Below are positions 10,562 to 42,280 of a stretch of 47,929 nucleotides of DNA, in pieces. The stretch covers positions 1-47,929 of the forward strand of contig JABIXB010000309.1 of the NCBI GenBank assembly GCA_018666805.1, read 5' to 3'. Numbering within the stretch: the first letter of the stretch is position 1; each line of letters starts with the position of its first letter. The position numbers and the translations under genes are program-made. The notes under the pieces were generated by a model. The model had not been told where the DNA came from. It did no database searches and was given only the letters and a program-made list of their open reading frames with translations. The stretch comes from Rhodospirillaceae bacterium (GTDB taxonomy: Bacteria > Pseudomonadota > Alphaproteobacteria > UBA828).

Positions 10562-11308
10562 ATGGCCTTACCGATCGCCGATAGCTGGTTCGAGATCCGT
10601 CCCTATAGTGACGATATTACACTGATCTACGAGCCCCATGTCATTCCTGATATCCACTGCAATATGTGGCATGTGCGCGGGCGCGACCGCGACCTCTTAT
10701 TCGATACCGGCATGGGCCTGGTCAGCCTGAAGCGCCATGTCGCGCTGGTTACCGAAAAACCGATCCTCTGCGTCACCAGCCACAGCCATTTCGATCATGT
10801 CGGCAACAATCACGAATTCGACGAGCGCCTCATGCACGCGGCGGAAGCGGATATCATGACAGCACCGACACGCGATAACACGGTGATCTCGGATTATGTC
10901 AGCGCCGATATTTTCACCGCGGCGCCCTTTGCCGGTTTCGATCCCGATGCCTACACAATCCCGGCTGCGCCGCCGACGCGCTTGGTAGCGGACGGCGATA
11001 TCATCGATCTCGGCGACCGCCAATTCGAAGTGTTGCACCTGCCCGGCCATTCGCCCGGTTGCATTGCCCTCTGGGAAGCGGCGACAGGCATTATGTTCTC
11101 GGGCGATGTGATCTATGACGGGCTGCTCTATGACGAGATTTATCATTCTGTGAAAGAAGACTACGCCGAAAGCATGGCGCGCCTGCGTGAATTCAAGGTC
11201 GAGACCGTGCATGGCGGCCATTGGGAAAGTTTCGGACGCGCGCGGCTCGGCGAATTAATCGACGAATATCTCGCCGGCGCGCGCAAGCCCGGCTGCCCGT
11301 CCGATTGA
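10562..11308 (+). CDS. Metallo-beta-lactamase-fold hydrolase
   Basis: The 248-residue protein has the zinc motif HSHFDH at residues 74-79, the second His in PGHSPGC near 162, and an Asp in FSGDVIYDG near 181, the metal ligand set of the MBL superfamily. It is probably a cytoplasmic hydrolase of an ester, thioester or lactone. No clear Shine-Dalgarno sequence precedes the ATG. The gene is divergent from the SDR gene, which suggests a shared small pathway. Its TGA is directly followed by the structured repeat at 11307-11450. Confidence 0.85.
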   Translation: MALPIADSWFEIRPYSDDITLIYEPHVIPDIHCNMWHVRGRDRDLLFDTGMGLVSLKRHVALVTEKPILCVTSHSHFDHVGNNHEFDERLMHAAEADIMTAPTRDNTVISDYVSADIFTAAPFAGFDPDAYTIPAAPPTRLVADGDIIDLGDRQFEVLHLPGHSPGCIALWEAATGIMFSGDVIYDGLLYDEIYHSVKEDYAESMARLREFKVETVHGGHWESFGRARLGELIDEYLAGARKPGCPSD

Positions 11309-11450
11309 ATCCACAATGTGATGAACCCGGTTCGTCACATTGTGGCAAGCGCGACCGCGCGCCCGAGCCTATGCGAGGTAGCCAAGGACGCGGATGCGTC
11401 CGTCCGGCATTTGAGGAGCATTACAACGGGTTATTCCTATGACCCGTTGG
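11307..11450 (+). repeat. Structured intergenic element, copy 1
   Basis: This element begins inside the stop codon of the preceding gene (GAATCC) and is found again on the minus strand at 42280-42149. It has stem 1 at 11311-11345 (11 bp CCACAATGTGA, plus a nested GAAC/GTTC), an invariant 24-base block at 11344-11367, an invariant CGAGGTAGCCAAGG at 11374-11387, stem 2 at 11386-11401 (GGACGC, loop GGAT, GCGTCC) and stem 3 at 11424-11449 (11 bp, loop TCCT). The stems differ from copy 2 by compensated changes, while the blocks and several loop bases are constant. This suggests a selected RNA fold. I know no named family that matches. Confidence 0.75.
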
Positions 11451-11466
11451 AGAAAAAACCCATCTT

Positions 11467-12603
11467 TTAACTGCCCTCTATCTTTGTCACCGCGCACTCA
11501 TCCGTGCGCCACCAGAGCGAGGCGAGATCGGCAATGTCGGCGTCGCGATCCCAGATGCGTGCCTTGACCGGGCCGATATCGCAATCCAGCGTGCGATCAA
11601 CATATTTGCCTTTATAGATGGTGGCGCCGGATTGGCACGGCAGGCGGTTGACGCCGTCTTCCTGACCATTGGTCGCAGCGGCATTGCTGAGGCGGACACG
11701 CTCGGCGCGGACGGCGACGCATACTTTTGTCCCCGCCGCCGGCACATCGCCGCCGCTCCACATGCCGCTCAGCATATGCTCGCCGACGCGCACGCTGGCG
11801 TGCTCACCACTCACTGCCTCAAGCGCCCCCTCGATAAGGTTTTCAACGCCCATGAAATCGGCGACAAAGCGGTTTCTCGGGCGGTCGAACAGATCCGTCG
11901 GCGGTCCTTCCTGCACGATATTGCCGCTCCGCATCAAAATGATGCGGTCGCTCATGGTGAGCGCTTCCTCTTGGCTGTGGGTGACATAAATGAAGGTGAT
12001 GCCGAGTTTTTTATGCAAATCAAGAAGCTCAACCTGCATATCGACACGCAGTTTTTCATCGAGCGCGCCGAGCGGTTCGTCGAGCAGCAGGATGGCGGGC
12101 CGTGTCACCAGGGCGCGCGCGAGTGATATGCGTTGACGCTCACCGCCCGAAAGCTGATGCACCCGGCGGTCATATTTATCCGGCAGGCGCACCAGATTGA
12201 GCGCTTCGATGGCGCGTTCGCGGCGTTCCGATTGCGAGATGCCGCGGACGCGCAGGCCATATTCAATATTCTGCCCGACCGACATATGCGGAAACAGCGC
12301 GTAATGTTGGAACACCGTCGTGCAGTTGCGCCGCGATGCCGGAAGCGCCGCAACATCCTGGCCCTCAATCGAGATACCACCAATCTTGGTCGGCCGCTCC
12401 AGGCCGGCAATCAGCCGCAACAGGGTTGTCTTGCCCGAACCGCTCTCGCCGAGGAGGGTCAGAAATTCACCGCGCCCGGCGGTTATCGACACGTCATCGA
12501 CCGCCACCAGGCTGCCGAATTGGTGGGTGGCATGCTCGACCGAGAGAACCTCGGAACGACCCGGGGAAGGCGCGCCCGGCGCAATATTATTGTCTGACGT
12601 CAT
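11467..12603 (-). CDS. Polyamine-type ABC transporter ATP-binding protein (PotA family)
   Basis: The 378-residue protein has Walker A GESGSGKT, Q-loop VFQHYALFPHM, signature LSGGERQR, Walker B ILLLDEPLGALDEKLR and a C-terminal TOBE-type domain, the layout of PotA/FbpC-type importers. I prefer the ATG at 12603 (MTSDNN) because GGAGG lies six bases before it; an ATG five codons further upstream lacks one. The start overlaps the 3' end of the permease gene by 17 bases. It is the last gene of the binding protein-permease-permease-ATPase operon. The transported solute is probably a polyamine, or another amine or small organic cation. Confidence 0.88.
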   Translation of the reverse strand: MTSDNNIAPGAPSPGRSEVLSVEHATHQFGSLVAVDDVSITAGRGEFLTLLGESGSGKTTLLRLIAGLERPTKIGGISIEGQDVAALPASRRNCTTVFQHYALFPHMSVGQNIEYGLRVRGISQSERRERAIEALNLVRLPDKYDRRVHQLSGGERQRISLARALVTRPAILLLDEPLGALDEKLRVDMQVELLDLHKKLGITFIYVTHSQEEALTMSDRIILMRSGNIVQEGPPTDLFDRPRNRFVADFMGVENLIEGALEAVSGEHASVRVGEHMLSGMWSGGDVPAAGTKVCVAVRAERVRLSNAAATNGQEDGVNRLPCQSGATIYKGKYVDRTLDCDIGPVKARIWDRDADIADLASLWWRTDECAVTKIEGS

Positions 12604-13477
12604 TTTGGCCTCCACCAAAGGCGAGTTTAATTGCCAGGAACGTAAGTCCGATACTGCCGACCGTAATAATGGTGCTCATCGCGTAAATCAGCGGCACCGT
12701 CGTGTTGTGCGCGCCGGATTGAATCCACAGATAAAGCGGCAACGTATCCTGCCCGGCACGCATGAAAATGCTGAACGGCAATTCGTTGAAAGACAGCAAA
12801 AAGCCGAAAAAACCAGCCGCGTAGATTCCCGGCTTTAAGATCGGCATCTCAATTTGCCAAAAGCGCTGCCACGGCTTGGCGCCCAAATCTTCCGCCGCTT
12901 CCATCAGGCGCGTGTCGAAGCGCGAGGCGACCACCAGCATCGCCAACAGGGCAAACGGAAATGCCCACACAAAGTGGGCGACAACGAGCGACCAAATACC
13001 CATCTTCACGTGGATCACAAGGCGGTACCACATGAAGAGACCAACGCCGCCGACGATTCCCGGTATCATCAAAGGCATGAGAAAGCCGACCAGGAACGGG
13101 CCGCGCCACTTTATCCGCGGCAACACCGGCCCGACAATCAGCACCGCGATGACACACAAAATAGACGTAATGAAGGCCAGCATGATGCTGAGCAACAGCG
13201 GATCGCCGACGCGGAAATTACTGCCGTAAGCCTCGCCGTCGCGCTGAGCAATATCGGCAAAGATAACGTCCTCATACCAGGTAATGGTCCAGTCGCCCGG
13301 TATGCCGGTCAGCGGGTCGCCGCTGAACGACAGCAGCATCAGCATGACAATGGGGAAATAGAGAATGAACAGAACGGAATATCCGAAAATAATGCCGATT
13401 CCCGTCGGCGCCCAATCCGTCAGCCGCTGCCAAAACGGAAGGCGAAAACGAGCAAGCGTTTTATTTTCAATCGTCAT
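12587..13477 (-). CDS. Polyamine-type ABC transporter permease (PotC family)
   Basis: This 296-residue inner-membrane protein has about six membrane segments and an EAA-type loop (EAAEDLGAKPWQRFW). The ATG at 13477 lies five bases after the stop of the first permease gene; a longer frame reading into that gene is not needed. It pairs with the PotB-like protein to form the channel. Confidence 0.87.
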   Translation of the reverse strand: MTIENKTLARFRLPFWQRLTDWAPTGIGIIFGYSVLFILYFPIVMLMLLSFSGDPLTGIPGDWTITWYEDVIFADIAQRDGEAYGSNFRVGDPLLLSIMLAFITSILCVIAVLIVGPVLPRIKWRGPFLVGFLMPLMIPGIVGGVGLFMWYRLVIHVKMGIWSLVVAHFVWAFPFALLAMLVVASRFDTRLMEAAEDLGAKPWQRFWQIEMPILKPGIYAAGFFGFLLSFNELPFSIFMRAGQDTLPLYLWIQSGAHNTTVPLIYAMSTIITVGSIGLTFLAIKLAFGGGQNDVRQ

Positions 13478-33403: not shown

Positions 33404-33499
33404 GGAGGAGGATCGCACCCCGGTGGGGCGCCCGGACTTCAAATCCGGTGAGGCGCGTGCGACGTGCCTGGTGGGTTCGACCCCCACCCTCTTCCGCCA
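33404..33499 (+). tRNA. selC: tRNA-Sec (anticodon TCA)
   Basis: The 96-base gene folds as a bacterial selenocysteine tRNA. The 8-bp acceptor stem is GGAGGAGG with CCTCTTCC (one G-T pair), followed by discriminator G and encoded CCA at 33497-33499. A six-pair D-stem with one A-G mismatch and a long variable arm (eight pairs AGGCGCGT/ACGTGCCT) are present. The anticodon arm is CCGGA, loop CTTCAAA, TCCGG, with the anticodon TCA at 33439-33441, and the T-arm is GTGGG-TTCGACC-CCCAC. The segment GGACTTCAAATCC is identical to the anticodon arm of E. coli tRNA-Sec as I remember it. It lies 91 bases before the first UGA-containing gene. Confidence 0.97.
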
Positions 33500-42136: not shown

Positions 42137-42148
42137 GTTTATTTGGTA

Positions 42149-42280
42149 CCACCGGGGCATAGAAATGCCCCGTTGTATGTTCCCTCAGACGCCGGGCGGG
42201 GGCATCCGCCCCCTTGGCTACCTCGTATTAACTCGGGCGCGCGGTCGCGCTTGCCGGAATGCATGATGCATTCCGGATTC
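42149..42280 (-). repeat. Structured intergenic element, copy 2
   Basis: It begins eight bases after the TAG of the molybdenum hydroxylase gene with GAATCC, as copy 1 does. Stem 1 is CCGGAATGCA with a TCA loop (42254-42276), stem 2 is GGGGGC-GGAT-GCCCCC (42198-42213) and stem 3 has the loop TTCT (42150-42175, ten of eleven pairs). The two constant blocks equal those of copy 1. Compared with copy 1, about eight base pairs are changed on both sides so pairing is kept. It ends 12 bases before the MoaD-like start codon. Confidence 0.75.

Follow-up and report, generated by a model that had tools for sequence, protein, structure and literature searches.

The window, that is, the whole stretch of DNA analyzed, comprises 47,929 nt of a Rhodospirillaceae bacterium (contig JABIXB010000309.1 of assembly GCA_018666805.1; genome of 3.9 Mb). 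It harbors two copies of a small structured element. Copy 1 is located on the plus strand; it is preceded by the stop codon of an MBL-fold hydrolase gene and followed by the 3' end of an ABC-transporter ATPase gene in convergent orientation. Copy 2 is located on the minus strand between a xanthine-dehydrogenase-type gene and a MoaD-like small gene. Both copies had been reported in a first-pass annotation and are recovered at these places and in these orientations. They are the only clear matches of a covariance model within the window, with scores of 78.9 and 67.0 bits, the next best match reaching 15.4 bits. Both fold more stably than all 200 of 200 dinucleotide shuffles, with z-scores of -5.4 (copy 1) and -3.3 (copy 2). 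The window also contains a selenocysteine tRNA gene at 33404-33495 (+), which is its sole RNA family match at gathering score (Rfam RF01852, 72 bits).

The element is built as a chain of local hairpins, which are named A to E in their sequential order. A variable hairpin A of 9-16 bp is followed by CAA, hairpin B (GCGC-GACC-GCGC), hairpin C (CCGAGY-NNNN-RCGAGG), a single T, the linker AGCCAAG, hairpin D, the tail G-CCCGGCGNNTGAGGG, and often hairpin E, which in the window copies begins with CAACGGG... or CGGGGCAT... In the tail of copy 1, the first C and the last G of CCC...GGG are jointly changed to U and A. The terminal TTGGTA of copy 1 is decayed to TTGGAG; copy 2 retains the 3' terminal repeat, and its matching 5' TACCA is unrecognizable. 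The coordinates of all parts are listed in Table 1.

Table 1. Positions of the two element copies, their structural parts, and the neighboring genes within the window.
Feature	Position	Strand	Description and basis
MBL-fold hydrolase gene	10562-11308	+	5' neighbor of copy 1
Element copy 1	11309..11451	+
Hairpin A, copy 1	11311..11345	+	16 bp; differs from the usual CCGGAATGC...GCATTCCGG type; fold
Hairpin B, copy 1	11349..11360	+	GCGC-GACC-GCGC; fold and alignment
Hairpin C, copy 1	11363..11378	+	CCGAGC-CTAT-GCGAGG; tandem G.A/A.G within the stem
Linker AGCCAAG, copy 1	11380..11386	+	class-wide alignment
Hairpin D, copy 1	11386..11401	+	GGACGC-GGAT-GCGTCC; fold and covariation
Conserved core tail, copy 1	11402..11417	+	GTCCGGCATTTGAGGA; family consensus GCCCGGCGNNTGAGGG
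Hairpin E, copy 1	11424..11449	+	CAACGGGTTAT-TCCT-ATGACCCGTTG; fold
ABC-transporter ATPase gene	11467-12618	-	convergent neighbor of copy 1
MoaD-like small gene	start 42136	-	neighbor of copy 2
Element copy 2	42147..42280	-
3' terminal repeat TGGTA, copy 2	42147..42151	-	comparison with full-length copies
Hairpin E, copy 2	42153..42172	-	CGGGGCAT-TTCT-ATGCCCCG; fold
Conserved tail, copy 2	42182..42197	-	GCCCGGCGTCTGAGGG; class-wide alignment
Hairpin D, copy 2	42198..42213	-	GGGGGC-GGAT-GCCCCC; fold and covariation
Linker AGCCAAG, copy 2	42213..42219	-	class-wide alignment
Hairpin C, copy 2	42221..42236	-	CCGAGT-TAAT-ACGAGG; fold and alignment
Hairpin B, copy 2	42239..42250	-	GCGC-GACC-GCGC; fold and alignment
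Hairpin A, copy 2	42254..42276	-	CCGGAATGC...GCATTCCGG; fold
Xanthine-dehydrogenase-type gene	ends 42289	-	neighbor of copy 2

Hairpin A has essentially different sequences in the two copies and is perfectly paired in both, and hairpin B is identical. The first pass had noted differences on both sides of the stems that keep the pairing. These are seen in hairpin D (GGACGC-GGAT-GCGTCC versus GGGGGC-GGAT-GCCCCC) as well as in hairpin E, and hairpin C adds one compensated pair (C-G versus U-A) that was absent from the earlier list. In an alignment of 29 copies and 28 pairs from the same genome, 86.7% of the cells pair and double-sided, pair-keeping changes occur in 12 of the 28 pairs; the inner pair of hairpin C, for instance, is U-A in 19 copies and C-G in 10. 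Tested for significance, as the first pass had proposed, the covariation score within this genome is 0.186 versus 0.080 for shuffled alignments, a value reached by none of 500 shuffles. The score of 52 class-wide cores is likewise far above its controls, with 0.408 compared with 0.124 +/- 0.011 for shuffles; sliding the partners gives no more than 0.110. When all columns of the class-wide alignment are compared pairwise, the strongest covariation is confined to hairpins B, C, and D, and the first pair of hairpin D is G-C in 27 cores, C-G in 22, U-A in one, and U-G in one. A pseudoknot-like GCC/GGC pairing around hairpin D was set aside because its bases hardly vary.

The stem sequences are nearly free yet complementary, whereas CCCGGCG..TGAGGG and the loop of hairpin D are fixed throughout the class, and among the 52 cores AGCC is invariant and AAG nearly so. 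The constancy of the linkers and of the GGAT loop, first remarked on from the two window copies, extends across the class, with the loop being GGA or GGAT. The loop in the 149 distinct D inserts is mainly C-GGAT-G, C-GGA-G, or C-GGAC-G. This presumably agrees more closely with the C-GNA-G/C-GNAB-G rule for highly stable mini-hairpins of DNA than with the GNRA/UNCG rules of RNA, which serves as a lead only. The reverse pattern, in which the sequence blocks persist and the stems are broken, had been named in the first pass as evidence against a structured element and is not the rule: in the 29 copies aligned first, all B stems and 86% of the D-stem cells pair. Pairs are broken in a minority of copies, and some of these breaks are tandem G.A. 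Stem changes at orthologous pairs appeared to be mostly switches between Watson-Crick pairs and G.A tandems; these were taken from hand-typed stems with one wrong entry and carry no weight.

Such covariation reflects either selection for the hairpins or copying between hairpin arms and alone is no proof of an RNA. Template switching is known to homogenize the arms of inverted repeats (PMC8604942, PMC7202029). Operating between the arms of these imperfect palindromes (quasipalindrome correction), it could compensate the stems in the absence of selection and would render the covariation uninformative on function. The D stems, being 89% Watson-Crick and 2% G.T, contain few G.U pairs, unlike many structured RNAs, and agree with this explanation. 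However, the most conserved parts are the unpaired AGCCAAG, CCCGGCGNNTGAGGG, and the D loop C-GGA(N)-G, for which arm copying offers no explanation, and tandem G.A persist uncorrected at fixed places of hairpins C and D in several genera, only in the orientation that is stable on one strand. Hence, we consider an origin of the stems without selection rather unlikely, and template switching may be the source of many of the double changes.

The mismatches also bear on the question of which strand folds. If the plus strand (the one with AGCCAAG) is folded, G.T and G.A are tolerable; folding of the other strand would instead show up as A.C and C.T. In the D stems, G.A occurs 18 times versus seven times for C.T (p 0.04), and G.T 25 times versus 15 times for A.C, a difference that is not significant (p 0.15). 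Six distinct types of hairpin D, drawn from several genera, carry tandem G.A/A.G at pairs 3-4, and none carries tandem C.T; the same G.A/A.G tandem is invariant in stem C of the window's genus. The mismatch classes thus lean toward folding of the plus strand and do not separate RNA from single-stranded DNA.

A core pattern of 40 nt occurs at 34 places in the Rhodospirillaceae genome, and its reversed control at none. A covariance model (R1) built from 29 of these 34 copies yields 84 matches with E <= 0.01 in the 3.9 Mb genome, tandem partial units included. Genomes of the same genus contain 0, 11, 32, 86, and 103 R1 matches, and other genera of the same family contain weaker relatives. In a class-wide scan with the core pattern, the matches listed include Azospirillum, Niveispirillum, Nitrospirillum, Magnetospirillum, Roseomonas, Roseococcus, Terasakiella, Erythrobacter, Qipengyuania, Sphingomonas, and others. 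With a second model (R2), core relatives are detected in 38 of the 387 alphaproteobacterial genomes sampled, representing 26 of 264 genera. The covariance-model search suggested in the first pass thereby reveals a family far larger than the two copies noted there. In a phylum-wide sample, all 12 genomes matching R2 are Alphaproteobacteria, the number of out-of-class genomes in this sample not being reported. Niveispirillum is the sole match among 72,556 plasmid records. No match is found among 50,697 phage records, and a reading of the element as phage cargo was rejected on this ground.

The B-C-D module is sometimes tandemly amplified with a unit of 72-80 bp. Pairs and triplets of the module with this period are seen on contigs C41, C158, C290, C298, C243, and C264 of the window's own genome (loci L089-L100); the first unit of these arrays is often shortened, with the linker GCCAAGCCAAG in place of hairpin C. 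In the main subtype of the window's genus (for example, L010, L011, L013, and L029 of the same genome), both hairpin E and the terminal repeat at the 3' end are lost, and an A-rich stretch after TGAGGG forms the end. Extra repeated flanks, CCACAAAGATTC-like upstream and GAGCGCGGATGCCCC.. and CCCCTTCTCCCCAACCCCTCTTCCC downstream, accompany many copies of the same-genus genome G009 (for example, at L476, L438, and L456) and L037 of the window's own genome. They suggest either a second repeat family traveling with or beside the element or homogenization inside G009.

The ends of the element are best seen in Azospirillum sp. RU38E, where full-length copies are numerous, as they are in other Rhodospirillales and Acetobacterales. 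These start with 5' TACCA, the outer 5' end reading TACCAAYCNGCC..., and end with 3' TGGTA just past hairpin E, most of them spanning 145-160 bp. The flanking 3-mers are identical in 52 of 70 full-length copies, versus a permutation mean of 15.4 and maximum of 29. In 59 copies, TNA is present on both sides; the two middle bases agree in 51 of these (15.7 expected) and are complementary in two. Since the flanking bases are equal and not complementary, they represent a target-site duplication rather than an extended inverted repeat. The TACCA...TGGTA ends together with exact TNA duplications therefore indicate that the element was inserted in double-stranded form by an enzyme that cuts TNA with a 3-nt stagger. 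At L262 and L275 of Azospirillum sp. RU38E, full-length elements are inserted right beside the end of another element with TNA in common, and existing copies may thus serve as insertion targets.

In the window's genus, most copies are without recognizable terminal repeats or duplications, these being mostly decayed; one copy of the window's genome (L021) has intact TACCAA...TTGGTA ends with CAA flanking each side. At the two window copies, the terminal repeats are partial and a target-site duplication is not demonstrable. For this reason, we infer mobility within the genus from kinship and from presence or absence at orthologous sites. The junction of copy 1 is empty in the same-genus genomes G008 and G009, where the same two genes are ~15 bp apart. 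The junction of copy 2 is empty in G006 and G007 (spacer of ~20 bp), holds an eroded remnant in G005, and is occupied by a copy of another subtype in G009. Where orthologous junctions of different species both hold the element, 12 pairs have the same orientation and one the opposite, which indicates that many copies are old and inherited and not freshly moved.

Neighboring genes were called with a simple GC3-based ORF finder. Among 50 contexts of the own genome, 15 are same-strand sense, nine same-strand antisense, 25 convergent, and one divergent, and the 39 element-free gaps in the same loci comprise 21 same-strand, three convergent, and 15 divergent ones. Hence, convergent gaps are preferred (25/50 versus 3/39, p 2e-5) and divergent gaps avoided (1/50 versus 15/39, p 7e-6); Azospirillum and class-wide loci exhibit the same trend. 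A 3' UTR stability element had been among the options of the first pass, and the location at gene 3' ends fits it. In such a reading, a cis-acting structured 3' UTR RNA for mRNA stability or processing would have been spread by transposition and would now persist at each site because of what it does to the upstream or downstream transcript. The compensated stems, the mismatch classes favoring one strand, and the persistence in the same orientation at the 12 orthologous junctions, whose flanks are ~75-88% identical over most of their length, agree with it, as does a weak sense excess of 55:36 when all sets are summed. However, the strand bias expected of a strand-specific cis RNA is not significant in any set (15:9, 12:10, and 28:17), half of the own-genome copies lie between convergent genes, and both window loci have empty orthologous sites. 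Copy 1 is devoid of an intrinsic terminator, and in copy 2 only hairpins A and E have T-rich flanks, on the strand antisense to both neighboring genes, which does not make a terminator. A per-site transcript role is plausible in principle and overall unlikely; gene-end location without orientation bias fits a tolerated element better than a strand-specific cis RNA.

An insertion sequence sharing the ends of the element was searched for in part of the genomes and with two Pfam families, and none was found. The six PF01609 matches in the element-rich Azospirillum sp. RU38E and the 30 PF13586 loci across eight element-rich genomes include no insertion sequence with TACCA...TGGTA ends, and neither do pairs of TNA-TACC...GGTA-TNA spaced 250-3000 bp apart in 1.3 Mb scanned. 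Movement of a REP-type element by a RAYT/Y1 tyrosine transposase would account for the palindromic nature, the high copy number, and the extragenic location at gene 3' ends, and in the window's genus hairpin D is coincidentally preceded by GTAG. However, five of six element-rich genomes have no Y1_Tnp, GTAG is not conserved in other genera, and the target-site duplications are unlike IS200-type transposition, which is not known to make any. A RAYT-driven element is therefore highly improbable.

Alternatively, one or a few copies could be transcribed into a small RNA that acts in trans, such as one sequestering a protein at the GGA loop of hairpin D, the remaining copies being by-products. GGA being the most conserved loop and a single folded strand being favored are consistent with this, and the irrelevance of gene orientation is what trans action predicts. 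CsrA is the best-known binder of GGA loops. Its gene is present in the window's genus (G000:C131:2003-2155 and G009:C83:12300-12452) but missing in four of six element-rich genomes tested (G016, G021, G027, and G030), and CsrA binding was rejected as a common role. Since, in addition, a crude scan reveals no sigma-70-like promoter near either window copy, a trans-acting small RNA is quite improbable.

Taken together, the element is very probably a non-autonomous, MITE-like transposon with a conserved modular core of chained hairpins. This follows from the terminal inverted repeats, the TNA duplications, the empty orthologous sites, and the ~100 copies per genome, and the mobile palindromic repeat proposed in the first pass gains its support from the same features. 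The dispersed copies inserted at TNA with a 3-bp duplication and accumulate at gene 3' ends, and they would presumably be moved by a DDE-type transposase supplied in trans. Duplication of TNA is characteristic of the IS1031 group within the IS5 family, the link here being one of duplication type and not of phylogeny. The strand with AGCCAAG...TGAGGG would fold singly, either as RNA or as single-stranded DNA during replication or transposition. A class-wide conserved core is, on the other hand, needless for a plain MITE. Because it is conserved regardless of gene context, the core fold appears to serve the element itself, and it may be selected for helping its own recognition, movement, or toleration. 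Co-transcribed hairpins would incidentally form a 3' UTR structure, and a host role at 3' ends, such as blocking 3'-5' decay as proposed for BOX, is possible by analogy and secondary. A bolder and tentative proposal, which we hold to be less than probable, is that the core represents a nucleic-acid part of the transposition machinery, i.e., a strand-specific RNA or single-stranded DNA fold needed in cis at TNA insertion and kept class-wide while its stems drift. If true, it would set the element apart from REP/RAYT, IS200/IS605, and ordinary MITEs as a different type of structured non-autonomous transposon.

As a rule, small interspersed repeats are confined to one genus, and the sequence inside them is regarded as passive. 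In this family, compensated change preserves the internal hairpins over a range from Azospirillum and Roseomonas to Erythrobacter, in up to ~100 copies per genome beside the 3' ends of ordinary genes. Hence, hundreds of natural replicates are at hand for asking what preserves the inner structure of a transposon, be it enzyme recognition, RNA function, or template-switch mutation. The family, new to Rfam, also cautions against reading strong covariation in a repeat as a sure sign of a regulatory RNA.

In Rfam 15, neither of the two copies nor eight related loci match a family at the gathering threshold, and the best sub-threshold matches by E-value are chance ones to unrelated RNAs, which bears out the earlier impression that no known RNA family is involved. 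A literature text search including core sequence strings returned no description of the family; an older one is possible, most subscription papers lying outside the search. REPs are single palindromes of 20-40 bp with a tetranucleotide tag, and the CGTC-tagged ones, common in Alphaproteobacteria and without known transposase, are described by a CGTC tag, an 8-9 bp stem, a 4-5 nt loop, and a CCA tail (PMC3733652). Like GTAG and CGTC REPs, the element is palindromic, of high copy number, and mostly downstream of genes; unlike these, it lacks a consistent tag, has terminal repeats and 3-bp duplications, and comprises 4-5 hairpins over 145-160 bp. Identity with GTAG REPs was rejected as GTAG is limited to the window's genus, the class consensus being ..AAGCCAAG, and identity with CGTC REPs by comparing the published family description with the class-wide alignment. 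The defining feature of the CIR repeats of Caulobacter and Brucella (Chen and Shapiro 2003) is a loop carrying a conserved GANTC site (PMC2229807). They are alphaproteobacterial and intergenic as well, with ~110 bp and at least two local stem-loops. The element, in contrast, is not enriched in GANTC (1.1 per kb in full-length elements and 1.5 per kb in all loci); without the GANTC loop site, identity with CIR was rejected, the two being set apart by description only. The element thus differs in the tested features from REP, CGTC-REP, and CIR and is not in Rfam.

The MITEs ERIC/IRU, RUP, and Correia/NEMIS fold mainly by end-to-end pairing and have TA at their termini (PMC2229807). The element shares with them a length of ~100-200 bp, terminal inverted repeats, a target-site duplication, a stable predicted RNA fold, and the intergenic location, and it differs in being a chain of local hairpins joined by conserved linkers, in duplicating TNA, and in having no autonomous partner known so far. 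BOX of Streptococcus pneumoniae is a modular repeat with a variable number of central modules that folds if transcribed, is enriched between convergent genes, and is proposed to move in a MITE-like manner (PMC3049150). Likewise, the element is a small interspersed modular repeat with ends, a central module of variable number, a tight fold, and enrichment between convergent genes. Unlike BOX, it belongs to another phylum and has another sequence, a B-C-D module of 72-80 bp, and 3-bp TNA duplications, and its stems diverge almost limitlessly within one genome and across the class. With its TACCA...TGGTA terminal inverted repeats (145-160 bp in Azospirillum and other genera), target-site duplication, and presence or absence at orthologous sites, the full-length form has the core features of a MITE, and its modularity resembles that of BOX.
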